Below are positions 15,187 through 48,110 of a DNA stretch of 55,532 bases, one piece after another. Numbering within the stretch: position 1 is the stretch's first letter; the number at the start of each line of letters is the position of its first letter. This DNA is from an uncultured Treponema sp. Lineage in GTDB: Bacteria; Spirochaetota; Spirochaetia; Treponematales; Treponemataceae. The DNA lies in NCBI GenBank assembly GCA_946537975.1, contig CAMNGG010000252.1, positions 1 through 55,532 of the forward strand. The letters are read 5' to 3'. Below the pieces are notes generated by a model. That model saw only the letters and a list, made by a program, of their open reading frames with translations, made no database searches and had not been told where the DNA came from. Both the position numbers and the translations under genes were made by a program.

Positions 15187-16473
15187 CCATATAGAACATC
15201 ACCAGTAAACTGGAAAAAAGTAAAAGATTTTTACGCAGAACAGGACAGAGATATACACGACAGGGTTCGTATATATTTCAGAAAGGAAAGGAAAAGTCCT
15301 GATGATTTAAGACCTCTTTTAAACCTTATCAGAAAAGCAAACAGAGCTTTAGAAAACTCTTATAGCAACACATCACATTTTTCAAACTCATTCGTCAACT
15401 CCAACAAACAGCAGTGTATGGCTAAATTCAGATTTGGCGAAACACTCGATGGACACAAACAATATCTTACAAAATATATGATTCAGAAAGATAAAGCTGA
15501 AGTGAAAAACAAGCCTGTTCTTTTTGGAAACGTTACGAAAGAAGAATATCTTAAAAAAATATATACAGAGAAAAAGCCCGTCTTTAAAAACGGCAAAATG
15601 ACATGGAAGAAAAATTCACCATATTTCAAATGGATTTTGTCACCGGAAAAAACTCTAGATGATGATGTTTTGCAGGAGTTTACAAAAGCCTTTATGACTA
15701 GGCTCGGACAGATTTCTGGATATGAGTTTATGTACCAGGCGGCAATCCATAGAGATACTGCACATCCGCACGTACACATTGTAATCAACGGTGTTGATAT
15801 GAACGGCAAGGTTTTGAAGAAAAGACCGTTTACAAAAGATGTTGTAAAAAATTATGCCCGTGAAATCTGCCAGGAAGTCTTAACTAAATTTTGTGGTGAG
15901 CGAGATTACGAGCTGAAACAGGCAGCGAAGGAGCATAGAATTACTGCCGAGCGATGGACTGAGTTTGACCAGGTAATCAAAGACCACCTGCACAAAACAA
16001 ATGAAGAAGGATACTGCGGCTATATGAAAAAGCCGTTAGACGGAGAGATTAAAGCCCGTCTTGATTTTCTTGAAAAGCTTCAGCTTGCAGATTACAAAGA
16101 CAATAAATATTTTCTCAAAAGTAATTTTGAAGAAATGCTTCACGTGTACGGAAGGTATAACACTTTCCGTGACGCAGAAAAGTATGTTACCAACAATTCT
16201 GACCTGCAATTCTATAAGCCTGAAATGGGAGAGATTCACGGAACTGTACGGCACGTATATACAATGAATGATGAAGAAGTATGGACTAACGGTGTCGTAC
16301 TGGAAGCTGAAAACGGAAAGTTTTATTTTGTTCCGTCATATAATCCAATCTATGACAAAGAGGGAAGCAAAGTAAAGATTTCACAAAAGAAGCCTAATGG
16401 AGATAACAGACGAAAAGAGCAGACTGTTATTGAAAAAGTTCAGGAAGAAGATTGGGATATAGAAATGGAGTAA
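15187..16473 (+). CDS. Relaxase (MobP/VirD2-like) with CCA at the start position
   Basis: 428 codons from CCA 15187, which is 6 bases behind AAAGGAG and directly after an in-frame TGA. No ATG/GTG/TTG occurs before ATG 15418 (residue 78), which has no ribosome site. The added N-terminus is charged and protein-like (NWKKVKDFYAEQDRDIHDRV). The relaxase core has HKQYLTKYM (about 90) and the metal-binding HPHVHIVING triad (His 193, 195, 197). It nicks oriT and pilots the strand through VirD4. A start at ATG 15418 would keep the catalytic core but lose 77 residues, so only the N-terminal extension depends on the CCA model. Confidence 0.85.
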   Translation, partial: PYRTSPVNWKKVKDFYAEQDRDIHDRVRIYFRKERKSPDDLRPLLNLIRKANRALENSYSNTSHFSNSFVNSNKQQCMAKFRFGETLDGHKQYLTKYMIQKDKAEVKNKPVLFGNVTKEEYLKKIYTEKKPVFKNGKMTWKKNSPYFKWILSPEKTLDDDVLQEFTKAFMTRLGQISGYEFMYQAAIHRDTAHPHVHIVINGVDMNGKVLKKRPFTKDVVKNYAREICQEVLTKFCGERDYELKQAAKEHRITAERWTEFDQVIKDHLHKTNEEGYCGYMKKPLDGEIKARLDFLEKLQLADYKDNKYFLKSNFEEMLHVYGRYNTFRDAEKYVTNNSDLQFYKPEMGEIHGTVRHVYTMNDEEVWTNGVVLEAENGKFYFVPSYNPIYDKEGSKVKISQKKPNGDNRRKEQTVIEKVQEEDWDIEME

Positions 16474-18436: not shown

Positions 18437-20761
18437 CCATTATTTCATAACGACAAAAGAGATTATCTGAAAGATAGTCCGGACAAACTTAAAATTAAAC
18501 TCAGATGGCAGTTCTTACGCTATGCAATTCCTATTGTATTTGCAGTAATAGGCTTGTTTACTTCTACTCAGGTTTTTGCAAAGAGTATGAATTATGACAC
18601 AAGGATTTGTGGGAATCCGTTGTTTTATTTCTACGGAAAGCCAGTATTCAATCCTGTGTTTTATTTTCTGTCAATGTTCAAATATATCTATCATGAGCAG
18701 TTTGTACCTTACTATCTCAATTCTATAATGTATTTTTTATACTTTGGAATTGCTGCACTTTTAATTGCGATTATCTGGACTATGATAATCAACTATATCA
18801 AAAATCATGAAGGTAACTGGCACGGTACAGCACGTTTCGCAGAAAAACGTGACTTGAAGAAAAACGGACTTCTAAAAAAAGAGGGTATTGTCTGTGGTCA
18901 GACTAATGACGCTATTATTAAAGTTGATAAATACGACTCTGCCGTACATCTTAAAAGTGTTCGTGAAGGAACATTAATCTGCCATAGTGGAAAAATGCAC
19001 ACATTACTTCTCGGCCCATCGGGCGAAGGTAAATCTTTTGTCATTATTCCTACCATTTGGAACTTCAAAGGGCATCAGATTATTTTTGACCCTAAGAGCG
19101 AAAACTTTAATATCACAAGCCGTGAAAAAAGCCGCTATTCCCGTGTAATCAGGTTCAGCCCAACAAAAGAAGATTCTGCTCATTACAATCCTGTTGAGGA
19201 CTGTATGCGTGAAGGACTGGCTTATGCCTTCCGTGATTCTGATCAAATGGCGAATATACTTTTTGCTCCGGCAAAAGAATCCAGTACAGGCTCGGAAAAC
19301 GGTGAATACTTTACTCAGTCAGGTAAATCTTTCGTTACTGCCGCACTTATGCACATACGCTATTCTGATTATCCTGAAAAGAATCTCGGTGGAATCCGTG
19401 ACTTCTTTGCAAACGGAAACGAAAGCGAGCTTGAAGCTCTTATGCAGGGAAAAGGTGAAGCCAGTGGTGCGCTTGGTGTTTCTCAGGTAAAAGAAATGAT
19501 GGCTACAAAACATTATTTCATTATCAATGAAAATATGTACAAGAGAAACAAAGCAAAGTTTGATAAGCTCGGCTTGAAAGTTGGCGACAAATACTATGAC
19601 CCTGAATTACAGAAGCTCGTATTAAAAGGCGCAAGCGATATTATGCAGACTAATGCAAAGGAAAAAGCTTCTGTATGGAAAACTATTGCGACAAAAATAC
19701 GTGATTTTGACGACCCTAATATCCGTACTAATATGGGAAGTTGTGATTTTAGTATCCAGGATTTTATAGATTCTACAGAGCCTATCTGCCTTTATCTTTG
19801 TGTTCCAAACTCTGATGTAGACCGTATTAGTGCAGTTTTCCGCCTGTTTATTACTGCAATTCTTATGCGTCTTACAGAAAACGATTCATCATTCGGAAAA
19901 GCTGAATTAAAAATTCCGCTTCTCTTACTTCTCGATGAATTTCCGATTCTCGGAACGTTCTCCATACTTGCAAAAGAAATGGGTATCTTACGTTCGTATA
20001 ACGTGTTTGTAATGATTGTATGTCAGTCGCTTAATCAGATTGTAGACCGTTATGGACAACATCATCCTTTTTTGGATCACTGTTCGTGTCATATTGTTTA
20101 TGCGCCTGGTGAAGTTCATGACGCTGAATACTTTTCTAAACGTATGGGAAATGAAACTGTACATCAGTCTAGAATATCAAGAAGCGGCGGAATAAAGATT
20201 GCGAGCGATAACAATGTAAATTATTCAGACAATGATTTTTCACGGCCGCTTATGGACAGTGCAGACATTCAGCGTTTACCAAGCAATCAGGCATTGATTA
20301 TGGTTCGAGGTATGCAACCTTATATTGCAAAGAAGATTCCATACTATCAGGATTCAAGATTCAAGCATTTAATGGGAGAAGCTCTTTCCTGGGATGAAGT
20401 TTTTGCAGACGTTGCCGGACTTCCATCTCAGGTTCGTAAGAGAAAAAAAGCGAAAGAGAATCTTGAAAAGCTTGAAAAAACACCTGCAATTTATATGACA
20501 GGTGATGAAAGTGCAATTTATGATGAGCTTTATACTTCAAGTGCAGATATGGAACTTGCTGAAGAAGTTTATAATGAATTTCATAATCTTAATTATAATG
20601 ATTTTTATTCTCCTGAGCCAAAAGATATTAATTATCAGGTAGCTGATAATATTGATAATGGCAATAAAACATCAGAAAATCTTAAAGACGATTCTGATGA
20701 AGAAGAATATGAGTATAACTCTGAATCTGAAAGCGAAGAAAGCACGGAGGGTATTTTCTAA
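18437..20761 (+). CDS. virD4: VirD4/TraG coupling ATPase with CCA at the start position
   Basis: 774 codons from CCA 18437, 6 bases behind AAGGAGG and directly after an in-frame TAA. The first canonical codon, TTG 18554, lies inside the first membrane helix (about 28-46), so it cannot be the true start. The N-terminus reads (M)LFHNDKRDYLKDSPDKLK. A second membrane helix is at about 96-115. Walker A is GPSGEGKS (193-200) and Walker B is LLLLLDEFP (Asp500 Glu501), typical of VirD4. The acidic tail ends EESTEGIF, sharing GIF with SSB. It links relaxosome and channel. Confidence 0.93.
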   Translation, partial: PLFHNDKRDYLKDSPDKLKIKLRWQFLRYAIPIVFAVIGLFTSTQVFAKSMNYDTRICGNPLFYFYGKPVFNPVFYFLSMFKYIYHEQFVPYYLNSIMYFLYFGIAALLIAIIWTMIINYIKNHEGNWHGTARFAEKRDLKKNGLLKKEGIVCGQTNDAIIKVDKYDSAVHLKSVREGTLICHSGKMHTLLLGPSGEGKSFVIIPTIWNFKGHQIIFDPKSENFNITSREKSRYSRVIRFSPTKEDSAHYNPVEDCMREGLAYAFRDSDQMANILFAPAKESSTGSENGEYFTQSGKSFVTAALMHIRYSDYPEKNLGGIRDFFANGNESELEALMQGKGEASGALGVSQVKEMMATKHYFIINENMYKRNKAKFDKLGLKVGDKYYDPELQKLVLKGASDIMQTNAKEKASVWKTIATKIRDFDDPNIRTNMGSCDFSIQDFIDSTEPICLYLCVPNSDVDRISAVFRLFITAILMRLTENDSSFGKAELKIPLLLLLDEFPILGTFSILAKEMGILRSYNVFVMIVCQSLNQIVDRYGQHHPFLDHCSCHIVYAPGEVHDAEYFSKRMGNETVHQSRISRSGGIKIASDNNVNYSDNDFSRPLMDSADIQRLPSNQALIMVRGMQPYIAKKIPYYQDSRFKHLMGEALSWDEVFADVAGLPSQVRKRKKAKENLEKLEKTPAIYMTGDESAIYDELYTSSADMELAEEVYNEFHNLNYNDFYSPEPKDINYQVADNIDNGNKTSENLKDDSDEEEYEYNSESESEESTEGIF

Positions 20762-29500: not shown

Positions 29501-32500
29501 AGTTCATGTTGTGGATCCAATCGCTGCCGCCGCTAACCCGTATATTCAGTTATCGTCAAGCGTTATGGTTATTGATACAAATAATACATATTCTTCTGTT
29601 ACAGCTGAACTTGTTGGTGGAGATATTAGTGATTATTCCAACTTTATCTGGACTAGCAATAATTCTCAGATTTGTAATGTTTATGGACAGAATGAAGTAG
29701 GAAAAATCAAAGGAATAAGTGAAGGTACAACATTTATTACTGTTTCACACCCTAAGGCAAATTATACAGCTCAGATTCTTGTTATTTGTGAAAAGAAGAT
29801 GAATAACGATTGTTATATCTCTGTTCCTACAAGTGTTATTAATATGAAACCTACAGATGATTTTACAACCATAACTGCGACACTTATAAATGGTGATATT
29901 AATGACAAATATAATTTCAACTGGTCTATGGATGTTTATGATATTGTAGATATGCAATATTCTGCAAATGTTTGTACAATCAGACCTAAGCAGGCTGGAA
30001 CTACTAATATTACAATTTCGCACCCGAAAGCTGATTATGACCAGCAGATAATTGTTACCGTTCAGGAATATTCTTCTTTTGCATTTCCATCTACAAACAT
30101 TACTGTTCTACAGGGCGATGTGAAATTTGTTAATATGCAGGTTCCTGTAACTACTGTAAAAACACACGTAGAGTATTACGTCAAAAACGAAAATATCTGT
30201 TCTATTTCCGGAACAAAAGAAGTTGCTCAAATTACAGGAATTACAAATGGTACTACAACTGTAACTGCAAAATTGATTGCTTCAAATAGTGGAATAGAGC
30301 AGGCTTCGGCAGATATGATGGTTTATATAAAAGAACGAGCCACAACCGATGCTTATATTACTTCAAGCTCTACAATCTATACAGTTACTAAAGGTAAAAG
30401 CCAGACCTTAAAAGCAACTATTACAGGTACAGACGTGAATCCGGCAGACCAGGCAGGCTTAAAATGGAATACCTCTGATAGTGATATTATTGAGCTTACG
30501 GGAATTGGCGCAGACGGTTATGTCAAAGGTTCATCAATTTACATAACTGCAAAAAAGCCTGGAGAAGCAATTATCACTTGCAGCCATGAAAAGGCAAAAT
30601 CTGCACTTGAGTTTTATGTTGTAGTTCCTGGAACAGAAAAGAAGATTATTACTCTTGATAAAACCTACCTTACGGCAGTAAAGGGTAGTCAGAACGTTAC
30701 TGTAAAAGCAACTATCGAAAATGCTGAAAGTAATGATGATTATAATAACCTTGAATGGAAAAGTGTTGCCGCAAACGGTTTAGACGGAAGTTCAATAGCA
30801 CGTGTAATGGGTTCAGGAAAAACAGTCCATATTTATCCAGTTTCTCCTGGCGAAGTTACAATCTATGCTTCACTTCCTGATACGGATTCTGTCGGTAAAT
30901 GTACTGTAATTGTAGAAGCCGGAAAATCTTTCAGTCTTGATACTACAGGATTGTTTATACATCCTTATGAGGTAAAAGAAATTCCTTATAAAGTAAGTCC
31001 TAATAATGCAGTTATCAGTTGGAATGTAAATACTACAACTGGTGAGGACTACTTTACTTTTGAAGATTTGGGATATGATTCAAATGGTAATGGAAAAGTT
31101 CAGATTACAGGTATTAAAGAAGGGCAGGGATTTGTAATTGCTTCTACTGATGGTGGTGCTACCGGAAGAATGACCGTAAAATGCGGCTGGACTTATGACT
31201 TCAAGATACAGGGAAATACCACATTTAATATTGATCCAAAAACACCTCTTGAAGTTACTTACACAGTCTGTCCTAAAGACGCAATAATTACAGTTGATTC
31301 AGCTGATATTGATGATTACTTTATTGCTGATGTACTATCTTACGGAGAAGTAGTGCAAGATGATTATATGAAAGAATCACTTGGAAAGGGTAGTATTAAA
31401 ATTACTCCATTGAGAGAATGCGACCACATGATGAATATTACTTTACGGGCTACAAACCCTGTGAATAATCAGGTAGTTGGAGAAATACCGATTAGAGGTT
31501 ATTCAAAATATCGAAATCTTGAAGTTGAAGTAAAGAATCCAAACAGAGTAGTCGGAAAGTGGTCAAGATATAGTGATGATAAAATTATCCTTGGTGATGG
31601 TGAAAAAATACAATTATCACTTGTCTTGAAACAGACTGATGCTGATGCTTATGTAAAGAGAGTTGAATACAACAAAAAAGTTGCTAACAGCTGGGTAAAG
31701 ATTCAGGGAATTCAAAGTGGTAATAATTATGAAATGTTTGTAGAACATCAGCAGGATATTATCAACACCTGGGAAGAAACTTATTATTACATAAATAACC
31801 TTTATTATGACCCAGAATACCCTCAATGGACTGCATTCCATTGGGAGCATTTTAGAAACTCTAACGGTAAATGGCTTTCTCTTGTAAAACCTGGATATAG
31901 CCTGGTAAATTTGCCTGAATATGATGTTTATGATGATAAGTTTGGCACGAGTCATTTATATTATCCTAGATATGGTGCTGAAGGAATGTATCTTGGTTAT
32001 AGAATAAATGACAAAAATCCTACTACATCTTTTGGATATAAATATTATGAAGAAGTTACTTATGGGCTAAATAACGTTGAGGCGCACGAACAAGGTAAAG
32101 ACGTAATAATAAAAGAGGATGCCTTAAGAAATCTTTATAGTAATATTTGGGCTGACCAGATTCATTGGTTATCGTCAGATATTAATGATTTGACTTATTG
32201 GATATGGAATTTTAAGGATAAAAAAGTAAGGCAAGTTCCTTTCAAGTGGGCAGAAGGCTGGAAAAAAATATATTGTTCCTGGCAGGAAGCAGAGTCTTGG
32301 GAAGAACAGGATACTAATGTTCTTACAGAAGATTTGTCTTATCGAGGAACACGTATGAGTGTTTATGATTTTGAACATAGTCCTTGGTTATACTGTCCTG
32401 GAACTATACAGACTTATGAACACGATTTTTCATTCAGCCTTTCTGATATTGAAAACGGAACTTATCAGAATGGAAAATTCGGTAATTCTTGTGTTGTTGC

Positions 32501-32690
32501 ACCTCATATTATGACTGAGAATGTAAATGCAGAAAAGCTTACAGAAACTTGTGTAAGCTCGAATGACGCAGTGCAAGATTATGTATTAGACGGATTTATA
32601 ACAGTTTATCTAACTCACTGCGGCAAGGAAGAAATGACAGACTTAAATATTCCAGTTTATGTTGAAACAAGAGAGTGCAGATGTAAATAA
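26502..32690 (+). CDS. Giant Ig-like-repeat surface lipoprotein with CCA at the start position
   Basis: 2,062 codons from CCA 26502, 6 bases behind AAGGAGG and directly after an in-frame TGA. The N-terminus (M)KTLFRIIG... is a full lipoprotein signal: basic residues 2 and 6, hydrophobic 7-20, lipobox FVSC with Cys22. The first canonical codon (TTG 26676, residue 59) would remove the whole signal. At least a dozen BIG2-like repeats of about 90-110 residues follow; many end with an ITVSHPKA-type strand. The C-terminal 450 residues are aromatic-rich and non-repetitive. It follows virB5, so a mating or adhesion role is likely. Confidence 0.85.
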   Translation, partial: PKTLFRIIGIIIFFVSLSFVSCDFFADGDLSQTDNNPGTSGNGTSGLQITSLKIDKTKLSLKVGSLEYISIDYKPANADFSPSYSYDDTIIEVSAKDNGVVIKGLQEGQTEFSVSCNNRSATCIISVTGYEIGYEKILEPYIYSNTNILQLSPEHSEKIFVSLYGGTAADINDYSWTIEDNSVGTIQPTGQYCLIKAKSAGYTRIKVTHPKAAYPFYMGMYVFDDPSNATFITTPNNILTMNMDDNEKTVNVSLVNGYESSLDSAFNWEIIDSNSNDCPINLNYNGARAVVTPKKNGCCTVRITHPDAVYPLDILCRVISIVKNVYIEPDKTVITLDGQREETISSNLININIGEYSINDYSYSIQNPEVAEITTEIGNMVSVRGLKNGSTKLIIGHPTSAYTREVLLISTNQLADAIDASCFITTTQNYIRTKVGASQTELNISLKGGDDGDEKDFVWTVKSTASDGSNDDVISLETPTGKAIFSRLAKSTLSFGNAYITPLKEGTAVITVSHPKVLYPTEILIKVLSQDAVLEEPLYFKGDGLVRILNGQSFDYTVTLNGTNKKPDDIQNISWTSDDVRLSVVGNEDKATITAPSLGTGQTISHINISHPKVDYPKSVLILTADDEETLMNMKALYTDKDYYNIEVGKTIHFGVETIGFDDDYDFSLMRWSVDKTGIIDYTATDTDKRYISITGLKSGTVKLTASIEDCECVFTITVLPVGAVQTQAEYYFTTSQNVVVFGETNIAKVVQVVAVNMPSIKYNDITWTCSDESICTVIPNRTSATISSLKEGEAIITVSHPESQNNLKIYVKIGSEYLVQDSSVVYISSQDVMTMLKDDQAQKLQAVLANYNGNDGAHFNFSIDNENVAKISAQSVTGTAFIKPVGSGQAEVTITNSLADISKKVLIVVGNSAEELAGITYLTTSNNVVSIGEGRTKTVSVSVKNSDEIILDGYSWVSSNYSVADVIENGATASIKANSQGTAIITVTNTHCTYPLQIIVHVVDPIAAAANPYIQLSSSVMVIDTNNTYSSVTAELVGGDISDYSNFIWTSNNSQICNVYGQNEVGKIKGISEGTTFITVSHPKANYTAQILVICEKKMNNDCYISVPTSVINMKPTDDFTTITATLINGDINDKYNFNWSMDVYDIVDMQYSANVCTIRPKQAGTTNITISHPKADYDQQIIVTVQEYSSFAFPSTNITVLQGDVKFVNMQVPVTTVKTHVEYYVKNENICSISGTKEVAQITGITNGTTTVTAKLIASNSGIEQASADMMVYIKERATTDAYITSSSTIYTVTKGKSQTLKATITGTDVNPADQAGLKWNTSDSDIIELTGIGADGYVKGSSIYITAKKPGEAIITCSHEKAKSALEFYVVVPGTEKKIITLDKTYLTAVKGSQNVTVKATIENAESNDDYNNLEWKSVAANGLDGSSIARVMGSGKTVHIYPVSPGEVTIYASLPDTDSVGKCTVIVEAGKSFSLDTTGLFIHPYEVKEIPYKVSPNNAVISWNVNTTTGEDYFTFEDLGYDSNGNGKVQITGIKEGQGFVIASTDGGATGRMTVKCGWTYDFKIQGNTTFNIDPKTPLEVTYTVCPKDAIITVDSADIDDYFIADVLSYGEVVQDDYMKESLGKGSIKITPLRECDHMMNITLRATNPVNNQVVGEIPIRGYSKYRNLEVEVKNPNRVVGKWSRYSDDKIILGDGEKIQLSLVLKQTDADAYVKRVEYNKKVANSWVKIQGIQSGNNYEMFVEHQQDIINTWEETYYYINNLYYDPEYPQWTAFHWEHFRNSNGKWLSLVKPGYSLVNLPEYDVYDDKFGTSHLYYPRYGAEGMYLGYRINDKNPTTSFGYKYYEEVTYGLNNVEAHEQGKDVIIKEDALRNLYSNIWADQIHWLSSDINDLTYWIWNFKDKKVRQVPFKWAEGWKKIYCSWQEAESWEEQDTNVLTEDLSYRGTRMSVYDFEHSPWLYCPGTIQTYEHDFSFSLSDIENGTYQNGKFGNSCVVAPHIMTENVNAEKLTETCVSSNDAVQDYVLDGFITVYLTHCGKEEMTDLNIPVYVETRECRCK

Positions 32691-33597: not shown

Positions 33598-34089
33598 TTA
33601 TTTTTCTGCGATGAACCAATCTATAACTGGCAAAATGTCTTTTAATTTTCTTATTAGGATAGGAGAAATAATGTTTCTTCCGTCAAGAAGATGTCCGAAA
33701 TTTTGCAGATACAAAAGGCTCTTATCACCAAAATTCTCAGTACAAAACTTACTGAGTAATTTGTCGTTACGAAGTTGATCCAACTTCTTATAATTTAAGC
33801 TCTTTGTAATATCTGTTACATATCTATCCTTTGGAAGCGGTGTGCCTTTTTTGCCTTCGGTTTCCTGGTAAAACCAGTCCGTAGGTTCCACAAACGGTAG
33901 CATTGAATATATGAAATTCAATGAAGGAGTTATATATTTTCCGGTGGCAACTTTCATAAGGTAACCTACGGAAAATTTTTTATTTAGCTTTTCGTTCCAG
34001 AACTCTGTTATTTTTCTTTTATCACAAATATTTAATAAATACAACTGTCCAAGCGATAACTCAGACCTTTCTATATACAATTTTGCCAT
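33598..34089 (-). CDS. HTH-like protein of unknown function, 163 aa
   Basis: Residues about 35-65 (KKFSVGYLMKVATGKYITPSLNFIYSMLPFV) have the spacing of an XRE-type helix-turn-helix with recognition helix near SVGYLMKVATGKY. The rest is unassigned and rich in basic and aromatic residues. ATG 34089 follows AAAGGGTGCTGTATT. Co-directional with two upstream genes in a cargo operon that includes a PilZ-like protein. A regulator is plausible, not proven. Confidence 0.5.
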   Translation of the reverse strand: MAKLYIERSELSLGQLYLLNICDKRKITEFWNEKLNKKFSVGYLMKVATGKYITPSLNFIYSMLPFVEPTDWFYQETEGKKGTPLPKDRYVTDITKSLNYKKLDQLRNDKLLSKFCTENFGDKSLLYLQNFGHLLDGRNIISPILIRKLKDILPVIDWFIAEK

Positions 34090-35272: not shown

Positions 35273-35316
35273 GTTAGGGTTATATTATATGTATCAGAGT
35301 GCTGTAAGGAGATTAT

Positions 35317-36498
35317 ATGAGTGATGTTAACACATCAACAAAACCTGGCACTACTGCGCCTTCAAAGAAAAATCCGTACAAGGAAGCTATCCTCAACAAC
35401 TGCAATGCGCTTCGTGATGCAAATGAAAATGGTACTGCCTGCTATCTTGGCGGAACAGAAAGAGATGGTAAACTTGTAATCAAAGCTGAAAAGCCTATTA
35501 CAAATGCCATTAACGGAAATGAGATTAAAGGTACTAATCAGCTTATTCTTCAGAACGCATTCAAAGCCGCAGGTCTTAAAGACCGTGAAGTTCTTACTTT
35601 TGAACAGGCTCAAAAGAATGGAATCCTTATCAGAAAGAACAGCCCTAATGTAAACATTACGCTTTCAACTTCTTTCAACAAGGAAACAAATTCCTGGAAT
35701 CCAAATCTCATACGTGAGTTCCCAAAATCAAGTTGTTTTGTTCTTGATAAAGACGGAAAGCCAATGTCACCTGCAGGAACTTTTGCCCTTGCAAAAGAAA
35801 ACTCTGAACGTTTTTCAAAGGTGAATAAGAACAGAGCTTTTGCCCACAATGAAAAAACAACTTCTGAACAGAGAGATAAGCTTCTCGAAAACAATGCCTA
35901 TGAACATAAGAGAGCCATTGATTATCTTACAGTTACAGGCGGCAATGTTGATGAATACAGACAGAAGTTTCTTTTTTTACCACCTATTGAGGAACTCGAG
36001 GGTATAACTGAAGAAAGTTATAATGCTCGTAAAAAAATTATTGAAAAAGAAAAAGAAATGCTTGCTCAGCTTGAAGCAAAATATCCAACTCCTCAAACTC
36101 TTGAACAGCAGAAATACAGAGCATACAGTGATGAAAAGCGCCTTGCAGAATATAAAAAAGAACACACAACAGAAACTCCTGTAATTGACGCAACAAACAC
36201 ACATGATCCAGTTGATTATGTCGGCAAGTATATGGCCGCTTGTAAGCTCGAAGCTGAGTTTGTTACAGACAAAGAATCGCAGAGAGAAGTGCAGAGCCGC
36301 ATTTCTCAGAACCTGCAGAAAAGCTTTGATGAAAACAATTACAATTCTGCCTTTACCTTTGGCGCTGAATGCGAGGAACGTGCGAAAGCCGTTATTTCTG
36401 ATTTTCGCAAACAGTCTCGCGAGCAGCAGAGAGGTGTCGCAGTCGAACGATCTGTTACTCAGGAACGACCCGAGCAGAACATAGAAATGACACTCTAA
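35317..36498 (+). CDS. ArdC-like antirestriction / ssDNA-binding domain protein
   Basis: 393 aa, ATG behind TAAGGAGATTAT. The N-terminal 120 residues (NPYKEAILNNCNALRDANENG, GTNQLILQNAF, REVLTFEQAQKNGILIRKNS) follow the ArdC-N layout of a conserved NP-Y start, G-N-x-L motif and TF-QA...G--I-K. ArdC-type proteins coat incoming single strands and protect against restriction. The C-terminal 200 residues are charged coiled coil and lack an obvious HExxH zinc site. It opens the final operon with the methylase-helicase. Confidence 0.55.
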   Translation: MSDVNTSTKPGTTAPSKKNPYKEAILNNCNALRDANENGTACYLGGTERDGKLVIKAEKPITNAINGNEIKGTNQLILQNAFKAAGLKDREVLTFEQAQKNGILIRKNSPNVNITLSTSFNKETNSWNPNLIREFPKSSCFVLDKDGKPMSPAGTFALAKENSERFSKVNKNRAFAHNEKTTSEQRDKLLENNAYEHKRAIDYLTVTGGNVDEYRQKFLFLPPIEELEGITEESYNARKKIIEKEKEMLAQLEAKYPTPQTLEQQKYRAYSDEKRLAEYKKEHTTETPVIDATNTHDPVDYVGKYMAACKLEAEFVTDKESQREVQSRISQNLQKSFDENNYNSAFTFGAECEERAKAVISDFRKQSREQQRGVAVERSVTQERPEQNIEMTL

Positions 36499-38437: not shown

Positions 38438-38563
38438 ATGAAACTAACATTTGAACAGTTAAAGAAATTTATCGAAAAGATTATTCCGGAAGGAAAAAAA
38501 CTTTCTGACAAAAAAATAAAAGAGATTGCAGAAATTTATTCAACTGCAACAGAAGCAAAATAA
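38438..38563 (+). CDS. Small hypothetical protein, 41 aa
   Basis: ACAAGGAGTAAATAT before the ATG. The product (KLTFEQLKKFIEKIIPEGKK...) is a short charged helical protein. No family recognised. Its stop lies 13 bases before the giant gene's start, with the AACCAGGAG ribosome site between, so they are co-transcribed. Confidence 0.55.
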   Translation: MKLTFEQLKKFIEKIIPEGKKLSDKKIKEIAEIYSTATEAK

Positions 38564-38576
38564 CCAGGAGAAAACT

Positions 38577-41500
38577 ATGAAAATTGAACTTATCGAAAAT
38601 ACAGAATTTGGCTTTTACAATATTAAATTCAGCTCTAGACCTGATTATGAACACAATGCAGATATGCTCAATGAACTTAAAGCTAATGGCTGGGCATGGA
38701 GTAGACACAACGGTGTTTGGTATCCTCGAACAAATGAAGCAAAATCCAAAGCGAATAATTTTGCGACTGAGTTCGCAAAGAAATATAACGAGCCTGAGAA
38801 ATCATTCGGACAGGAACTTTTTGAACGTACTCAGCGCATAGACGAGTGGAAGAAAGAACATCTTCCGCAGGAGCAAAATAACGAGCCTGTACACGAAGAA
38901 ACTAAGTTTGTTGAACTTAATGATAATCAGAAGAAAGTTTACGAGCTTTTGAAAGCTACGAATAATTTTTCAGAAAGTCAGATTTTGGAAATGGTATCAA
39001 AAATTGATACTGCATATCAGACAGAGAACTTTGATATTCCTGAATTGTCCTGGGAAGAAATTAAGTCTTTTATTCATGCAGATGATTCTTTTGATTTAGC
39101 AAAAGACCTGCGTAATGTTTACAATCCAAATATTTCAGAAACCTATAACAAAATAAATGTAGTTTACAACTATATTCACGATTTAATGGATTTTGACGTT
39201 CTTGGGGAAAATCAATATGAGCGTAACGCAGACGCAGAATATCATACAATGTGTGAATATATACGTCATGATATTTTACAGCCTGTTTGTGAAAATATTG
39301 TAATGGGTAGATACAGTGATTTTTTTGATATGCAGGAAGATTTTATTTCCAGACGTGAAGAAAAGATTGCTGATATTTCAAAATCATATATGGAAAATCC
39401 TGCTATTAAAGAGCAGTATATCGGAATGAAACGAGCAGAGCTTCTTAAAAAAGCTCCGGAAATACTCAAAGGTCGTGAGTTCAATTCCTGGATTTTAAAT
39501 GTTGATAATGACGGTCATTTCCTTTTCTACGAAAGCAACGGTTATCTTAAATCAGAATTTCTTAATGAAGATAAATACAATACAGTAAAAGATTTTCTTT
39601 CCAAGGTAGAAGAACTTGATTTGCTTGAAGAAAGTTCAAAGCAGTTGAAAGAAGAATATACCAAAATGCACAGTCTTTTGGAAAAGCCGCCAGTACAGAT
39701 TCAGGAAGAACTTATTGCAAAAGAGGTTGAGGAAGAACTTTCAAATGCAGATGAAGAAATTGATACATCAATATCAGAGTATAATGACCTTGGAATTGAT
39801 ACACGTACAGGCGAGCTTTGGAACGGAGAAGAAAGTGAAGATATTTCTGAACCTGAAACACAGGAAGAAGAATCTACTGAACTCACACAGACAGATCTGG
39901 ATAATGCAACAAAGGTTATTCCTGAAAATCAGTATCAGTTTATGCTCGAAAATGCTGCAGGAGAAGAAGCAGAATACTTCAAGCAGAAGCTCAAAAATAT
40001 GGCGACAATCTGTGCAGATTTACAGAAACATTCAAACAAGGAAAATGTAAACAAGGATGGCTCTCACCCTTGTAAGCTTCATTATTTCCTTGGTAACTGC
40101 GACTGGTATATTTCAGAGCTTGATAATGACGGAATCGGCTTTGGTTACTGTATTCTCAATGGCGACCTTTATAATTCAGAGTGGGGAAGTGTAAATGTTT
40201 GTGGAGATTCTACTTACGAACAGCCGCTTACAAAAATGTCTATCAATGTTCCTATCCGTATAAACGGCTCGGAGTTCCACCGTTCAGTATCACCTGAGCT
40301 TGATCTTCATCTTGATGAAGATACAACAATCGAAAGAGAACTTTATAAGCTCGATAGCGAATACTTTGCTGATTACAAAAAATATGCAGAAAAAGATGAA
40401 AAAATACTTGCAAAATCATCAGAAGTAAGCATTAATATTATGGAAGAAACTAATCAGAAATTGGAGGTAGAATATGGCAGTAAAACAGATATTGGATATG
40501 AACGACGAGCTGGAATTTCCAGTGGAAGCAATCTTGATCAAGGACTGGAAGAGCCTGGAGCTGAAGCAGATAGGGGAAGTGATACCGGAAGAGGACAACG
40601 TGTACTACATAGCGAGAGAGAAGAAAATGGTAGCCTGGAAAACTCCGAAGGAATTCCTGAATTGCACACTTTCGGACGGAAATCTGAAATCAGTGATCTA
40701 CATATCGAAGAAGGGCTTTCCGGCAATAATGAAATCTTACACAGCGAGAGGAGCTTTGAAGCAGGCGATTCAGATTTGCAACAAACAGGGCTGGAAAACG
40801 GACAGATTTCACATCGAGTGCGCACTGTCGAACCTGGAGATGGAACTGGAGTAAATCCAAACGAAAATACTTCCTCAGAGCCATTGCATGGTAATGAGGA
40901 AGTTATTGAAAAAGAAACTCCTGTTTACAACATCAACGGTACAGAGTATACACAGGAAACAATCGAAACTTTAATCACAGAAGATATTCAGAACGTATTA
41001 AATGACTTGAATCCTGCACCTGTAATCGAAGGTATTAGACTGTATCAGAATCCTGAACAGACTGGTAAAGTAAATATTCTCCTGCAGTATAATGCAAAAG
41101 AAAACGAAACTAACTGGCGAGAAGATAATTTGTTTAATGCCGTTATGGTTGAAAATCTCACTTTCAACGGAATGCCAGTTGATGTAAATCCAATTACACC
41201 TGAGAAATCAGGCACAATCGAGCAGTATCTTGAACACTTTGAAAGTCTTGGTGTAACCAATGAAAACGAAGCTATTGTAAAGCAGGCAGAAATGCTTGAT
41301 GAACAGTTTGACTTTGCAAAGCTTGCTGATGATATTTGTCAGCAGTCTTATGAACAAAGTGGAGCAGGTTTTAATTACTATATTTATTTTGAAGAAATTG
41401 CAGGACTTGCAGGAAAAGACGTAGCTTGGGTTAAAGAAAATATCGAGAAAATCGGAGAAGCCCTTGAAGAACATAATGATGAATTACTTCTTGATTTTAA

Positions 41501-44500
41501 TTTGAAAGAAGCTCTTGAAGAAGATTCTCTTGATCTTAATTTCTGTTCTGTAGGCGAAGATGCGAATGAACTTTTTAAAAAAGATGATTCAGGACGTTGG
41601 GTAAGAAAGACAGATAAAGAACTTGCTTATGAAAGAGCCATTGATGAACAGAGTTCTAAATGGGATGAATTAGAAGCTGCTTTTACAGGTCTTGAAACTT
41701 TCCGAGGTAATTTCGAAGAAATTAAGAGAGAAGTATTTGAACAGTATTTAGATAAAGGTATACATTTTAATGAAACACAAATATATTTCAACGAAACACA
41801 GTGGCAGGAAGAAACTGTATACAGACTGTTGGAAGAAAATATTAATTTTGGCGCATTAGCCGAAACTGCCGAAGAAGTGGAGGCTCCAAATCATTCTCAG
41901 CGTATGGAACAGCGCTCCACAGTCCTCGAAGATATTTCTTCAAAGATTGTTTCCGGTGAAATTAAAGCAGCAGACTATCAGAAATACTACGAAAAAAAAT
42001 ATTCTGAATTGTTTAATTCTGAAATCAAAGCTGTTTCTGAAAACGTCGAACATGAAGAAGTTCAAACACTCAAAAAACTTAGTAAGGAACAACAACAGGC
42101 TCTCGATAATATTCGTTTTATTATGCGAAATGACACGATGATGAGAGTTTTGGAAGAAGTCGAACTTAATCGAATAGGTGGAAAATATAATTCGTTTGCA
42201 GAGCGCCTTGACCACATTGCTGATGTAATTCGTAATACTAATAGTGAATCACTTGTTGCAGTTATTGCAAATATTGATTTTTCAAAATATGAAACAAATC
42301 CAGCATCTGTCGAACAGAAAATATTTGATTTAACAAATATATTTGAATTTTGGGAACGAGGTTTGGCACTAAACAAAGAACTTGAAAATTCAAAAGAACA
42401 AACCATATCTAAAGAACCTGAGCAGCTTACTTCAAAAAAAGACATTAAGGCTATCCGTGAACAGTGCAGAGAAATCTTACAGAAGCCTGATTCTGAAATC
42501 ACAGAAGCAGATAAAGCTATTCTGGCACAGTACGAAGGTGCAGGCGGAATCAAAGAAGATAACCGTACTGCTTCCGGTATTTTGAACGAGTTCTATACGC
42601 CAAATAACCTTGTTGAAAAAGTATGGCAGATTGTAGATGCATACGCTCCTGGTGCAAAAACTGTTCTTGAGCCTTCTGCAGGTGTGGGCAAGTTTGCAAA
42701 TAACAGACCTAACAACGAGTTTACAATGCACGAACTTGATGAAACTTCCGCAAGAATTAATAAGATTCTTCATCCTGAAGCAAATGTTATTCATGGCGCA
42801 TATCAGAAGCAATTCTTCGATGCAGGCGAACGTATTCATACACCTGGGCAGAAAGTAAAGTATGATGTAGTTATCGGAAATCCGCCTTATGGATTGTACA
42901 ACGATAAGTACAAAGGACTTGGCGAGGGCAAAGAGTTCGACCGTTACGAGGAATACTTTATTTCAAAAGGCTTGGACGCTTTGAAAGATGATGATTCAAG
43001 ACTTGCTTTTGTAGTTCCATCAGGATTCTTGAATTCTTCAAAAGATAAGCAGAAAGAAATAATTGCTTCAAAAGGTCATATGATTGACGCATTCAGATTG
43101 CCTGAAAAGACATTCCCGACAACCGAAGTTGGTACTGATATTATCATTTTGAAAAAGTGGAAGCTTCCTGAAGGTCAAATGTATCCAGATAATTCCATGT
43201 TGCAAGCCGCCGTAGGTGCAATGTCTGACGGTAAGTATTTTGAAGCATATCCGGAGAAAATACTTGGTGAAGTAAAGACACGTACAAATCGTTTTGGAAA
43301 AGAAGAAAACTATGTTACAGTTCACGAAGGACTTACTATCCAGGACGAGCTGAACAAAATAGATTCATTCTTAAAGAATCCCAAAAATGAATGGACTGTC
43401 AAAGAACCTGAAAAATCAAGTTCGCCAAGTATTCAGCTCCAGCCTGCAGTAAACAAGGAGCAGACTGTAAGCCAGGATATTGCACAATCTACAGAAGTTG
43501 TCGAAGAAGAACTTGACGACCCTACAAAACGTCTGTATGAAGATCCAGACGGTATTTTCAAAACAAAACATCAGCTTACACGAGAAGAATTTGCAAAGTT
43601 CTATACAGGGGCAAACTTTACTCAGGAAGATTACAATATTTGGGGAGCAACAGACTGGAAGGGCAACGTTGATACTTCAAAGCTTACAGAAGCAGAACTT
43701 TCTTATCTCATATCAAGCGATAACTATGTAAAAATAAACGAAGGAGTTTATACAAATGCTATGCTTTATGCTACTGGTAATATCTATCAGAAGCTTGATG
43801 AACTTGAAGAAAATAAAGAAAACTTATCTTCTGAAAGCTACGAAAAAGCAAAAGCAATTCTCACAAATGCAATTCCAAAAGTTGTACCTATCGAAAATAT
43901 CAAAATAGACGCACTTTCTCCGCTTGCTCAGGAATTTAAAGTTCATCGTGAAGTTACATCATCACGCTGGTATATGGGAAGAACAGAATTACAGACTGTT
44001 GAGCTTGATATAGATCTTCGTGAAGATTTTATAAATTGGGCAACCAATTGCAGTTCGCTTGATAACTTTGATGAAAACAATCAGAGCATAAATTCAAGAC
44101 GTTCTATTTACAATTATTCTTCAGCTAAGATTTCACGAGAGGATATTCCTGAAGATATTTCCTGGACAGATATTGTAAATTACATCGACCGTGTTCCAGT
44201 CCCTACTCACATTGACGAGAAAAATGATACGAAAGAAGTAAAGAATAAGAAAAACCTTATTGCCGGAAATATCAAAGATGCTCGAAAGAATACCTGTTAC
44301 GAGCTTTTCAATCGCTACATTCAGGAAGGACTTCCACAGGAAGATAAGGAACGTCTACAGAGTACCTGGAATAAAATTTACAATGCTACTGTTCATGCAG
44401 ACTATAAAAAGCTTCCGCTTTTCATAGATGGAATGTCTACATTCAAAGGCGAACATCCGTTTATGCTTTATAAACAGCAGGTAGAAGGTGTATCACGTTT

Positions 44501-47500
44501 GCTTTCAAAAGGTAACGGTTTGCTCGCTTATGAAGTCGGAGTAGGTAAAACTGCTGCAGGTATTGTAACTACAATGGGACAGTTACAGACAGGAAGATGT
44601 AAGCGACCTGTTATAATTGTTCCAAATCAGGTATATAAAAAATGGGTTAATGATTTTAGGGAATTGTTTCCGGATGTAAAAATTAACGACTTATATAATC
44701 TTTCTGAAAAATACATTGATAAATATTTTGACGAAAGTACTCATTCTCTTTTAGTTGAGCCTGGTTCTGTTACTGTAATTACTGATTCAGCTTTACAGAA
44801 AATTACTTTCAGCGATGAGGTTTGTTCAAACGAGCTTGCAGAAGATTTCAGTTATTTACTTGGTGTAAGTGACGCTTTGCATAGTGGTGATGATAAAGAA
44901 AAAGCTAAAGCATATCAGAAGATTCAGAATGAAATCGGTAAAGCTTCACGTATACAGGTCAAGAAACTTCCTGAAGGTAGAGAGCAGGAAATTCAGCAGT
45001 CTTACATTTTCTTTGATAAATGTGGATTTGATAACGTTGTAATTGATGAAGCTCACAGATATAAGAATCTGTTTACAATTCCTCGCCCTAAACGTGGTGA
45101 TAAAGGCGCACGTGAATTTGAAGGACTTGGAACAGGTAAACCTTCTATCAGAGCTGAAAAAGTATTCGGAATTACAACGCTCATTCAGCGCAGAAACGAA
45201 GATAGAAACGTATTCCTTTTGACCGCTACACCGTTTACAAACAATCCTCTTGAAGTTTATTCAATGCTTTCTTTCATGGGAAGAAAGGAGCTTATAAACC
45301 GTCATATTTACGATGTAAGAGATTTCTGTACAGAGTTTGCGCAGACTAAATTTGAATATGCAGTAAAACCGAGTGGTGAAATTGAACCTAAGCAGGTAAT
45401 GAAAAACTTCAGAGGACAGAAGAAGCTCAAGAATCTTGTATTTGAATACATAGACGCAGTAAGTGCAAAAGAAGCAGGTATTGAACGACCGGAAGGCGAG
45501 CGACACCCAATCTATCTTGAACTTAGTCCTTTACAGCAGAGAATCATTAAACTGGAACAGGACGCTATTGCCGCCGCTGATAATCCTTATGTAACTCTTA
45601 AAGCAATGACTACAATGCGCACCTGTACGCTTTCTCCGGCTCTCTTAGACCCTGATGATTTTGCAAGTGTAGAAGATATTGTAATTCCACCAAAAAGTCA
45701 GATTGTCGAAAGTTCTCCAAAGCTTTCTTGGGTATGTAATACAGTTGCAGATCTTTACAAGCAGAAGCCTGAATGTGGACAGTTTATCTATATGCCACAA
45801 GGAAAAGACTATTTTGATGAAGTAAAGAGTTACCTTATTAAACAGGGAATCCCTGACGATGCTATTGATTATATTCATTCAACACACAATGGCAGTGCAG
45901 AAGATAAGGATAAAATTTCAGCACGTTTCAACAACAAGGAAGATAAATTAAAAATCCTTATCGGCACGGCCACAGTTGCGGAAGGTATAGACCTTAACGG
46001 TAACTCTATTGTTGAATACAATACAATGCTTGGCTGGAATCCTACGGAATCAATTCAGGTAGAAGGTCGTATCTGGCGACAGGGTAACGAGCAGGGCAAA
46101 GTTCATATCATGTATCCGCTTATGGAAAACTCAATAGACGCTCTTATCTATCAGAAGCATGATGAAAAGTCTAGCCGCATTAACTCTGTTCTTTCAAAAA
46201 CTGATGATGGAAAAGACGCTATTGATACAGATGAAATAAATCCGGAAACTATCAAGTTCGAGCTTATTACAGACCCTGAAAAGAAAATCAAAATGATTAT
46301 TGATGAAAAGACTGCCGAAAAGCGAAAGGAAATCAAAGTCATTGAAAATCGTCTTGAAACTATTCAGGAGCTTGAAGAAGATAGACAGAACTGTAAGACC
46401 CTGTACGATACCAACGTAGCAGAAAAAGAAAAATATAAATCTCTTTTGAAAACTGCACGAGAAGAATTGAAAGCTGATCCAAACAACTGGCAGAAAGAAG
46501 CAAGAGTTACAAGCAATGAAAGGGCAGTGGATACCTGCAATAAAGAAATTGCAAAGTCAAGAAACCGCCTTAATACAATCAGCTATAATTTCAATAAGTT
46601 TGATATTCACGAGCCTGAGCGTGAAGTACCTATTAAGCTTCAGGAGCTTGTAACAAAGAAAGCAGAACTTGAAGCTGATATTTCTGATATTGTAAACAGT
46701 AAGGACAGACTTATTGCAGATGAACAGAAAAAGCTTCTTGAAAAGAAGATTCTCTCAAAGCCAGTTGAAGAACTGCGCAGAGAATGGGTAGAGTATGTAA
46801 ACAAAAATACCTGGTACAAGAAGCAGAATGATAAATCAAAAGACAGAAACGAAACTGTTCAAGAGCCGCTTGAAGCTGTAAAAGATTTCACAGTTCCAGA
46901 GGTTATGCTCAAGAAACTTGATAAAGCTATGGAAGAAATGGACTTCAAAGTTTTACATAATTATCTCAATTGGGGAGATAGAGATATTATTAGTGATAGT
47001 CATGAAAATGATAAAGCCATTGTAATTCTGCGAGAGCATTATGAAAAAACAAAGGGAGTAAAACTTCCTGAACAGTTTAGAAAAACTACTGAATATCTTG
47101 TTTCTGTATGTGATGAAAAAACACTTCCCGAAGTATGTAAATTCAAATCAATGGAAGAAGCTGTTGCTTATGCTTGTAGTAGTTGGCATGGTGAAGCATA
47201 TCAGCGTGATGGCTATGTTGAATATGTAACCCTTGATAACTTTAAGAAAAACAGAGATGTTTCTGCATTGGCAAAGGATTTGCAAAAACATGAAGGCCAA
47301 GGTTATCTCGGTCATGGTTCACCAACTGGTTTTGGATATGATTGCAGTCCTAAGGGTGTAAAAATTGAAGCTTTTATAAATAAAAAACGAGAAGAATTCT
47401 TTGTAAACTGGAATCAGGTTGCAAAAATTAAAGCAAAACAATGGAACAGAGAATATCCGGCAGAATTTTCAATCAAAGACGAACCAAAGCGAGAAGGGGA

Positions 47501-48110
47501 GAAAAATCTCAAAAACATTCAAATGGTTCAGCAAGATTTGTTTGATTTTGATGAAGTCAAAGTACAAACAAAAACTCTTGATATTCGTATGCAGGGCTAC
47601 AATTCTCAGTTTATTCTCTCAGACCAGGCACTTGAAAATTATCGTGGACTACCGCCATTTATTAAGAAGTCAGACAATGAATGGGTAATCAGATGTAAAG
47701 GCGAAGATTTTTCTAAACCGCAGGAAGGAATTGCTTCTTATGAACTTGTAGATATAAGCCTTACAAAAGAACAGTTACAGGGAATTGTAAAATCACATCT
47801 TTTCGCACAGCAACAGGAAATAAGCCACAAGAAGTTTGATGATCCGGAATATAAAGGAAAGGTAATTTGTCCAAAGCCTGAAATTTCAGATATGCAGAAA
47901 GAACTGCTCAAATCAAATGGTATCTCTGATAACGATTTGAAGAAAATAACAAAAGAAAACTTCAACGAACTTCTCTGCGAAGGTGAAAAGCCAATCTTGA
48001 AAAAGAAATTGCCACAACCAAAACAGTTGAAGCAGGATGCAAATCAGAAGCTTCTTCCAAACACAACAATCGAAATAACCGAAGATACAGACTTTGATTA
48101 CGATTATTGA
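38577..48110 (+). CDS. Giant N6-adenine methylase / SNF2-like helicase fusion (DarB-like)
   Basis: 3,177 aa from ATG 38577 (CCAGGAGAAAACT before it). The N-terminal module (LKANGWAWSRHNGVWYPRT, about 40-58) is the 'W-S-R-x-x-x-W-Y' domain of polyvalent mobile-element proteins. A low-complexity linker (about 633-759) coincides with the nested gene. The methylase has EPSAGVGKFA (about 1365) and NPPY (1435-1438). The helicase has GVGKT (1988), DEAH (2157-2160), LLTATPFTNNP and QVEGRIWRQG (2494). Long coiled coil after 2560. Such proteins are large antirestriction factors delivered with the DNA. A start at 38526 is possible but lacks a ribosome site. Confidence 0.88.
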   Translation: MKIELIENTEFGFYNIKFSSRPDYEHNADMLNELKANGWAWSRHNGVWYPRTNEAKSKANNFATEFAKKYNEPEKSFGQELFERTQRIDEWKKEHLPQEQNNEPVHEETKFVELNDNQKKVYELLKATNNFSESQILEMVSKIDTAYQTENFDIPELSWEEIKSFIHADDSFDLAKDLRNVYNPNISETYNKINVVYNYIHDLMDFDVLGENQYERNADAEYHTMCEYIRHDILQPVCENIVMGRYSDFFDMQEDFISRREEKIADISKSYMENPAIKEQYIGMKRAELLKKAPEILKGREFNSWILNVDNDGHFLFYESNGYLKSEFLNEDKYNTVKDFLSKVEELDLLEESSKQLKEEYTKMHSLLEKPPVQIQEELIAKEVEEELSNADEEIDTSISEYNDLGIDTRTGELWNGEESEDISEPETQEEESTELTQTDLDNATKVIPENQYQFMLENAAGEEAEYFKQKLKNMATICADLQKHSNKENVNKDGSHPCKLHYFLGNCDWYISELDNDGIGFGYCILNGDLYNSEWGSVNVCGDSTYEQPLTKMSINVPIRINGSEFHRSVSPELDLHLDEDTTIERELYKLDSEYFADYKKYAEKDEKILAKSSEVSINIMEETNQKLEVEYGSKTDIGYERRAGISSGSNLDQGLEEPGAEADRGSDTGRGQRVLHSEREENGSLENSEGIPELHTFGRKSEISDLHIEEGLSGNNEILHSERSFEAGDSDLQQTGLENGQISHRVRTVEPGDGTGVNPNENTSSEPLHGNEEVIEKETPVYNINGTEYTQETIETLITEDIQNVLNDLNPAPVIEGIRLYQNPEQTGKVNILLQYNAKENETNWREDNLFNAVMVENLTFNGMPVDVNPITPEKSGTIEQYLEHFESLGVTNENEAIVKQAEMLDEQFDFAKLADDICQQSYEQSGAGFNYYIYFEEIAGLAGKDVAWVKENIEKIGEALEEHNDELLLDFNLKEALEEDSLDLNFCSVGEDANELFKKDDSGRWVRKTDKELAYERAIDEQSSKWDELEAAFTGLETFRGNFEEIKREVFEQYLDKGIHFNETQIYFNETQWQEETVYRLLEENINFGALAETAEEVEAPNHSQRMEQRSTVLEDISSKIVSGEIKAADYQKYYEKKYSELFNSEIKAVSENVEHEEVQTLKKLSKEQQQALDNIRFIMRNDTMMRVLEEVELNRIGGKYNSFAERLDHIADVIRNTNSESLVAVIANIDFSKYETNPASVEQKIFDLTNIFEFWERGLALNKELENSKEQTISKEPEQLTSKKDIKAIREQCREILQKPDSEITEADKAILAQYEGAGGIKEDNRTASGILNEFYTPNNLVEKVWQIVDAYAPGAKTVLEPSAGVGKFANNRPNNEFTMHELDETSARINKILHPEANVIHGAYQKQFFDAGERIHTPGQKVKYDVVIGNPPYGLYNDKYKGLGEGKEFDRYEEYFISKGLDALKDDDSRLAFVVPSGFLNSSKDKQKEIIASKGHMIDAFRLPEKTFPTTEVGTDIIILKKWKLPEGQMYPDNSMLQAAVGAMSDGKYFEAYPEKILGEVKTRTNRFGKEENYVTVHEGLTIQDELNKIDSFLKNPKNEWTVKEPEKSSSPSIQLQPAVNKEQTVSQDIAQSTEVVEEELDDPTKRLYEDPDGIFKTKHQLTREEFAKFYTGANFTQEDYNIWGATDWKGNVDTSKLTEAELSYLISSDNYVKINEGVYTNAMLYATGNIYQKLDELEENKENLSSESYEKAKAILTNAIPKVVPIENIKIDALSPLAQEFKVHREVTSSRWYMGRTELQTVELDIDLREDFINWATNCSSLDNFDENNQSINSRRSIYNYSSAKISREDIPEDISWTDIVNYIDRVPVPTHIDEKNDTKEVKNKKNLIAGNIKDARKNTCYELFNRYIQEGLPQEDKERLQSTWNKIYNATVHADYKKLPLFIDGMSTFKGEHPFMLYKQQVEGVSRLLSKGNGLLAYEVGVGKTAAGIVTTMGQLQTGRCKRPVIIVPNQVYKKWVNDFRELFPDVKINDLYNLSEKYIDKYFDESTHSLLVEPGSVTVITDSALQKITFSDEVCSNELAEDFSYLLGVSDALHSGDDKEKAKAYQKIQNEIGKASRIQVKKLPEGREQEIQQSYIFFDKCGFDNVVIDEAHRYKNLFTIPRPKRGDKGAREFEGLGTGKPSIRAEKVFGITTLIQRRNEDRNVFLLTATPFTNNPLEVYSMLSFMGRKELINRHIYDVRDFCTEFAQTKFEYAVKPSGEIEPKQVMKNFRGQKKLKNLVFEYIDAVSAKEAGIERPEGERHPIYLELSPLQQRIIKLEQDAIAAADNPYVTLKAMTTMRTCTLSPALLDPDDFASVEDIVIPPKSQIVESSPKLSWVCNTVADLYKQKPECGQFIYMPQGKDYFDEVKSYLIKQGIPDDAIDYIHSTHNGSAEDKDKISARFNNKEDKLKILIGTATVAEGIDLNGNSIVEYNTMLGWNPTESIQVEGRIWRQGNEQGKVHIMYPLMENSIDALIYQKHDEKSSRINSVLSKTDDGKDAIDTDEINPETIKFELITDPEKKIKMIIDEKTAEKRKEIKVIENRLETIQELEEDRQNCKTLYDTNVAEKEKYKSLLKTAREELKADPNNWQKEARVTSNERAVDTCNKEIAKSRNRLNTISYNFNKFDIHEPEREVPIKLQELVTKKAELEADISDIVNSKDRLIADEQKKLLEKKILSKPVEELRREWVEYVNKNTWYKKQNDKSKDRNETVQEPLEAVKDFTVPEVMLKKLDKAMEEMDFKVLHNYLNWGDRDIISDSHENDKAIVILREHYEKTKGVKLPEQFRKTTEYLVSVCDEKTLPEVCKFKSMEEAVAYACSSWHGEAYQRDGYVEYVTLDNFKKNRDVSALAKDLQKHEGQGYLGHGSPTGFGYDCSPKGVKIEAFINKKREEFFVNWNQVAKIKAKQWNREYPAEFSIKDEPKREGEKNLKNIQMVQQDLFDFDEVKVQTKTLDIRMQGYNSQFILSDQALENYRGLPPFIKKSDNEWVIRCKGEDFSKPQEGIASYELVDISLTKEQLQGIVKSHLFAQQQEISHKKFDDPEYKGKVICPKPEISDMQKELLKSNGISDNDLKKITKENFNELLCEGEKPILKKKLPQPKQLKQDANQKLLPNTTIEITEDTDFDYDY
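40474..40854 (+). CDS. Nested gene, 126 aa, in the +1 frame inside the giant gene
   Basis: TTGGAGGTAGAAT directly precedes the ATG, a strong ribosome site. The product (MAVKQILDMNDELEFPVEA..., VYYIAREKKMVAWKTPKEF, QAIQICNKQGWKTDRFHIEC) has a normal, folded-looking composition with Trp, Cys and aromatic residues. Over the same bases the giant frame is Gly/Ser/Glu/Arg-rich and low-complexity. That contrast suggests the nested frame carries the coding constraint here. It may be a real overprinted gene, or a former separate gene captured when two flanking genes fused. Function unknown. Confidence 0.6.
   Translation: MAVKQILDMNDELEFPVEAILIKDWKSLELKQIGEVIPEEDNVYYIAREKKMVAWKTPKEFLNCTLSDGNLKSVIYISKKGFPAIMKSYTARGALKQAIQICNKQGWKTDRFHIECALSNLEMELE

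Follow-up and report, generated by a model that had tools for sequence, protein, structure and literature searches.

Polyvalent proteins of the DarB type, in which LPD36, methylase and SNF2 domains follow one another in this order, have been described in PMC5512222, and a gene nested in another frame is unmentioned in the text of that paper. In plasmid RSF1010, mobB is embedded in a different frame inside mobA/repB, and both products serve DNA transfer (PMC2200642). In Bacillus subtilis, the small protein ComS is encoded out of frame within srfAB, a very large multidomain gene (PMC12915044). Long same-strand overlaps in the +1 frame are favoured by sequence composition (Sabath et al., PMC2542354). 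Here we analyse a 55,532-nucleotide stretch of DNA from an uncultured Treponema sp., hereafter called the window, in which a small ORF lies inside a giant methylase-helicase gene of the DarB type; a literature search for this nested gene found no description. We consider it probable, at about 0.85, that the two form a genuine nested gene pair, i.e. a dual-coding locus in which a small protein of a conjugation-associated family is encoded within the linker of the polyvalent gene.

The conjugative element in the window encodes a VirB/VirD4 type IV secretion system, a relaxase, a topoisomerase and an ArdC-N protein (Table 1), and it ends near 50 kb where chromosomal genes adjoin. Also within the element, a 2062-codon ORF with a Big_2 Ig-like domain (window 26502-32690) probably encodes a surface protein. 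The giant gene, which could also start from the ATG at 38577, is identified as DarB-like by its QYEGAGG and NPPYG motifs and by matches to PF07669, PF00176, PF00271 and PHROG 10089; hereby the LPD36-type GxGU motif, the methylase NPP(Y/F) motif and the SNF2 helicase are all found in one chain. The start of the LPD36/methylase core provides a fixed point, near which the nested genes of relatives sit. As claimed by the preliminary description of this DNA, a 126-codon ORF with its own GGAGGT site is present in the +1 frame, wholly inside the giant gene and on the same strand. Read in the giant frame, the overlap is rich in Gly, Ser, Glu, Asp, Asn and Arg, with a Gly plus Ser fraction of 0.20-0.33 per 30 residues and a hydrophobic fraction of 0.13-0.30, compared to 0.37 just 5' of it. 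The limits of ORF and linker, said to coincide, do so approximately, the polar stretch extending about 20-25 codons beyond the nested stop.

Table 1. Features of the nested locus and its host element (positions in the window).
Feature	Position	Strand	Remarks
Relaxase (MobA/VirD2-like) of the host conjugative element	15187..16473	+	
VirD4 coupling protein	18437..20761	+	In related elements a free homologue of the nested gene divergently adjoins virD4
ArdC N-terminal domain protein, 5' of the giant	35308..36498	+	
Giant DarB-like polyvalent protein, 3194 aa from TTG	38526..48110	+	Adenine methylase, LPD36-type N-terminal part, SNF2 helicase
GGAGGT, Shine-Dalgarno site of the nested ORF	40463..40468	+	Sequence; 5 nt 5' of the ATG; kept in relatives
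Nested ORF, 126 aa	40474..40854	+	Stop TAA 40852-40854; homologues, AlphaFold2 model, pI 5.9
Overlap and tail read in the giant frame, stop-free polar linker	40474..40917	+	Probably disordered
LPD36/methylase core start (IREQC...QYEGAGG...FYTP...NPPYG)	42435..42893	+	Motifs; domain description in PMC5512222
Eco57I-type methylase domain PF07669	42717..43088	+	
SNF2 helicase domains PF00176, PF00271	44508..46085	+	

The nested protein is acidic (products of the family have pI values of 4.1-5.9), and its conservation lies in a C-terminal domain at about residues 72-126. AlphaFold2 models residue blocks 81-126 with pLDDT values of 89-96 as helices after a short strand, while the N-terminal half is modelled poorly; a short form of the family is modelled as a helical hairpin (mean pLDDT 86). 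The small protein is thus predicted to be acidic with a folded C-terminal helical domain. Foldseek searches of the PDB and of viral models gave no match at E < 0.001, and sequence searches of Pfam, NCBIfam, PHROGs, PADLOC and the PDB with the small protein gave no believable match. A PADLOC match of one Bacteroidota copy to the MukB-like JetC (E 1.5e-4) was dropped as likely due to composition.

Another Treponema species has a full-length homologue with 47% identity, which again lies in the +1 frame inside a giant methylase-helicase gene whose linker is equally rich in Gly, Ser, Asn and Glu. Within the genus, nested copies occur in nine genomes, including the window, and three genomes from other genera of the family (G491, G357 and G479) carry nested forms which, as in the Treponema-like genomes, are always in +1. 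In G479, a 243-codon frame on the minus strand (L077, contig G479:C127, 1147-1875) joins the family domain to an N-terminal part in which membrane-like hydrophobic segments can be discerned by eye. Alignments yield the C-terminal signature FP..L..MTA.EA...A...C..QGW.....N....L.NLEMD, and profile searches together with two alignments (A1 and A2) show the hallmarks FP....(M)TA...A...C..QGW.....N....L.NLEMDL in a conserved C-terminal domain common to nested and free copies. Judged by these FP...NLEMDL hallmarks, and with no Pfam, NCBIfam or PADLOC counterpart matched, the small family appears to be unnamed and new. In the ASCERTAINMENT-free set, giants were found via the methylase region alone (alignment A5) and hence blind to the nested frame. 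This search returned 27 loci from viral collections, and a +1 nested ORF of the family is present in 26 out of 26 strong ones, near-duplicates included. In most of the short forms among them the nested ORF ends 3-18 bp 5' of the LPD36-methylase start. Scanning viral contigs gave no matches, either to the window protein or to the free-copy alignment. Phage P1 darB, considered as an archetype, has no comparable nested ORF at the site. All seven well-matched giants of Bacteroidota (Chryseobacterium, Elizabethkingia, Epilithonimonas, Capnocytophaga and one unclassified) carry a +1 ORF of 102-162 aa at the same site. The profile of these ORFs is linked moderately to the short nested form by hhalign (probability 89.7%) and shows no match to the long form. 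The nested family thus probably spans two bacterial phyla, Spirochaetota and Bacteroidota.

How the nested frame is entered can be judged from its 5' signals. Outside Bacteroidota, 25 of 34 nested ATGs are preceded at the proper distance by at least five contiguous Shine-Dalgarno bases, compared to 7% of the 2396 other +1 ATGs in those giants (p = 6e-22). The nested copies of Bacteroidota have the ATG and lack the Shine-Dalgarno site; such starts fit the known initiation habit of this phylum. A programmed +1 frameshift in place of internal initiation, yielding a fusion of the giant's N-terminal domains with the small protein that ends at the nested stop, could make use of a Shine-Dalgarno-like site before the frame junction as a stimulator, for which prfB is a general precedent. 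In phage PBC5, moreover, an unrelated small family forms the in-frame C-terminus of an upstream ORF. We nevertheless regard frameshifting as unlikely, as the copies have an ATG at initiation spacing after the Shine-Dalgarno site, the nested frame of the window is shut just 5' of its ATG, the free homologues possess a Shine-Dalgarno site and ATG of their own, and the Bacteroidota copies retain the ATG without the site. Under the preferred reading of a nested gene pair, a single mRNA of the giant gene would be translated in two frames. Ribosomes coming from the giant's own start would read the overlap as a polar, flexible linker leading into the LPD36-methylase-helicase core, and ribosomes starting at the internal GGAGGT/ATG would produce a separate small acidic protein. 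Both proteins would hence come from the same transcript.

The codon-position analysis in homologues, which the preliminary description had proposed, assigns the selected frame along the gene. Since position 1 of the giant codons equals position 3 of the nested codons, an excess of differences at this position marks synonymous-type change in the nested frame. In ten spirochaete/uncultured pairs, differences at giant positions 1, 2 and 3 amount to 380, 271 and 200 in the overlap, compared to 443, 388 and 642 upstream and 299, 196 and 802 downstream, although some of the pairs are close relatives, so that p-values overstate independence and serve as guides only. In Bacteroidota the corresponding counts are 97, 73 and 172 upstream, 108, 82 and 41 in the overlap and 62, 41 and 188 downstream. 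The excess at nested position 3 inside the overlap thus indicates that the selected frame switches to the nested frame there and then back to the giant frame. In line with this, amino-acid identity is higher in the nested than in the giant frame in every pair. The case named in the preliminary description as a refutation, homologues with stops in the nested frame and a conserved giant linker, was looked for and not seen.

The giant frame is likewise maintained through the overlap. Not a single giant-frame stop occurs in a set of 46 nested copies, whereas synonymous resampling predicts about 274. This set retains near-duplicates and comprises 39 copies of this family, those of Bacteroidota among them, and 7 of other families. 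Within-gene codon permutation, a stricter null, predicts 0.3-6 giant-frame stops per copy. In 15 free copies the equivalent frame contains 69 stops in 1568 codons. The giant linkers also differ from this equivalent frame in composition, with more Gly plus Ser (0.30 vs 0.19) and fewer hydrophobic residues (0.20 vs 0.30), so that the giant frame is tuned as well as open; hereby, T is avoided and G favoured at nested third positions, which renders the giant linker more polar. By these comparisons both readings are under selection, the nested one for its sequence and the giant one for keeping its linker open and polar, which supports the earlier proposal that two gene products share this DNA. It is very improbable that the small gene and a downstream methylase-helicase alone are translated and the giant frame of the overlap goes unused as one polypeptide. 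Some proteobacterial plasmids do annotate the helicase/methylase CDS with a start just 3' of the small gene, but the lack of giant-frame stops in all 46 copies speaks against it, and so does selection on the giant frame to either side of the overlap, the upstream side included.

The preliminary description offered as its other possibility that the giant ORF formed by fusion across a small gene. Such a fusion is plausible as an origin, since the nested stop lies so close to the LPD36-methylase start in most short forms and the N-terminal lengths of the giants vary (about 140 to 1780 codons); it does not exclude shared coding. The same two observations would fit a relic, in which the joining of N-terminal domains to the methylase gene enclosed a small gene lying in tandem, whose frame is now decaying. 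Even less probable than an unused giant frame, this relic is contradicted by the lack of decay, the nested frames being open and constrained over large distances, and it plausibly describes the origin of the locus rather than its present state. The direction implied by the earlier term "overprinted" may be reversed, the small gene being older than the giant frame. A codon-usage age test gave -0.06 for the nested frame, -0.02 for the giant linker and 0.17 for the rest of the giant; both overlap frames fit poorly, and thus no age direction can be taken from codon usage.

The site itself is also occupied by other small genes. A sequence-unrelated small family is found there in giants of Desulfovibrionaceae and in 60 proteobacterial plasmid records, and another unrelated one in 21 phage records (20 listed, with annotations as DarB-like, methylase, transglycosylase or hypothetical). 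Wherever examined, these families lie in +1, and in two pairs the substitutions are distributed over codon positions as in the present family. In three of the proteobacterial plasmids (L224, L225 and L226) an open giant frame spans the small gene in every case; in two the small gene is a separate CDS just 5' of the helicase/methylase, and in the third it is hidden inside. In phage PBC5 (L228, 5733-6309) the sequence of the phage small family constitutes the in-frame C-terminus of a separate upstream ORF. This upstream ORF overlaps the methylase-helicase ORF in another frame, and PHROG 938 ends with the phage small-family sequence. The PBC5 arrangement suggests that such overlaps may come about when a reading frame 5' of the methylase gene is fused with it and the small coding unit between them is bridged. 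With two unrelated small families at the same site, the site thus recurrently hosts nested genes. In its broader form this reading comprises at least three sequence-unrelated families from Spirochaetota, Bacteroidota, Pseudomonadota, Thermodesulfobacteriota and tailed phages. That the site 5' of the LPD36-methylase core recurrently keeps unrelated +1 small genes owing to selection, in mobile elements, for making a small partner together with the giant seems to us tentative, its chances falling a little short of even.

ORF length contributes nothing to this argument. When the amino acids of the giant were fixed and synonymous codons resampled, the longest +1 open stretch had a mean of 145 codons and reached at least 127 codons in 64% of the runs (P = 0.64), and the particular nested stretch was stop-free in +1 in 13% of the runs. 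The longest +2 open stretch had a mean of only 39 codons. That all nested copies lie in +1 is hence mostly a matter of composition, since this frame is long open by chance and +2 is short. A second +1 open stretch of 133 codons elsewhere in the giant looks like a chance frame. As the length is unremarkable, the finding depends on relatives, and what goes beyond chance is comparative, namely the homologues, the codon-position pattern, the Shine-Dalgarno site and the avoidance of giant-frame stops. A chance ORF, kept open in +1 by a composition known to favour long overlaps (PMC2542354) and yielding no product, would account for the length and is the least credible explanation in view of nested homologues in several genera and probably in more than one phylum, the nested third-position excess, the Shine-Dalgarno site and the free-standing homologues.

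The latter were found when the 126-aa protein was searched for as a free-standing gene elsewhere. Of 200 genomes from the genus, 20 contain the giant, 32 the small family and 17 both (Fisher p = 3e-13), so that the family occurs in 17/20 giant-bearing genomes compared to 15/180 without the giant. In six giant-bearing genomes a free copy lies 17-31 kb from the giant on the same contig in place of the nested gene. One of them is T. succinifaciens, with two giants and two free copies, where the family gene on plasmid pTRESU01 (NC_015386.1, 165,572 bp; contig G238:C2) is TRESU_RS13750, annotated "hypothetical protein". No element carries both a nested and a free copy; giants without the nested gene are also without the Gly/Ser linker. 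G124 and G127, both with a confident match to the giant, lack any member of the family. On the methylase-region tree the nested state is spread over all parts and the free state is found in a single Treponema clade, to which the window also belongs; at least three changes of state are needed. In all 12 free copies with VirD4 on the contig, virD4 adjoins divergently at 0.4-1.8 kb. Eight genomes with a free copy show no VirD4 at E < 1e-20, and the giant's helicase is absent from 12 of 15 free-only genomes; free copies without VirD4 or without a giant thus point to a role of the small protein of its own, independent of the giant. Before the ATG of free copies at four loci (L004, L006, L007 and L052) a shared leader (TTATTCGGAAAAGCTAGAGTAATTCTGCCGTAA and variants) is found. 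Rfam gave no match for this leader in the first three, and a tRNA only in the 5' regions of free copies. The small family is a regular component of conjugative elements of this class, either nested in the giant or free and divergent beside virD4. The likeliest function, itself doubtful, would be to assist conjugative transfer as an accessory or adaptor, which might for example accompany the giant protein or the transferred DNA to VirD4; nesting would couple production of the small protein to that of the giant. The small protein might conceivably act as a VirE1-like adaptor or chaperone of the secretion system, an idea prompted by the two gene locations and the acidity.

Few long bacterial overlapping genes rest on deep conservation, and here the same small gene is kept across genera and probably two phyla; its free-standing homologues offer a natural control for the nested copies. 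Automatic annotation has missed this component of widespread conjugative elements, for example on plasmid NZ_CP139138.1 of Chryseobacterium sp. JJR-5R, where the nested match lies at 33705-33989. The locus offers a tractable case for why genes nest and how one DNA stretch serves two proteins, and the recurrence of unrelated small genes at one site suggests a general rule on polyvalent antirestriction proteins. Compared to mobB of RSF1010, the arrangement is alike in that a small gene of a mobile element is embedded in a different frame of a larger gene of the same element; the host there is a relaxase and here a methylase-helicase, and the function here is inferred. As with comS in srfAB, a small protein is encoded out of frame within a very large multidomain gene and on its mRNA, whereas the family described here is spread over many genera of mobile elements and is found as a free gene, too. 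Both are analogues, and no kinship is claimed. The host gene, in contrast, is itself one of the DarB-like polyvalent proteins (PMC5512222), with the same domain order and motifs, located on a conjugative element.
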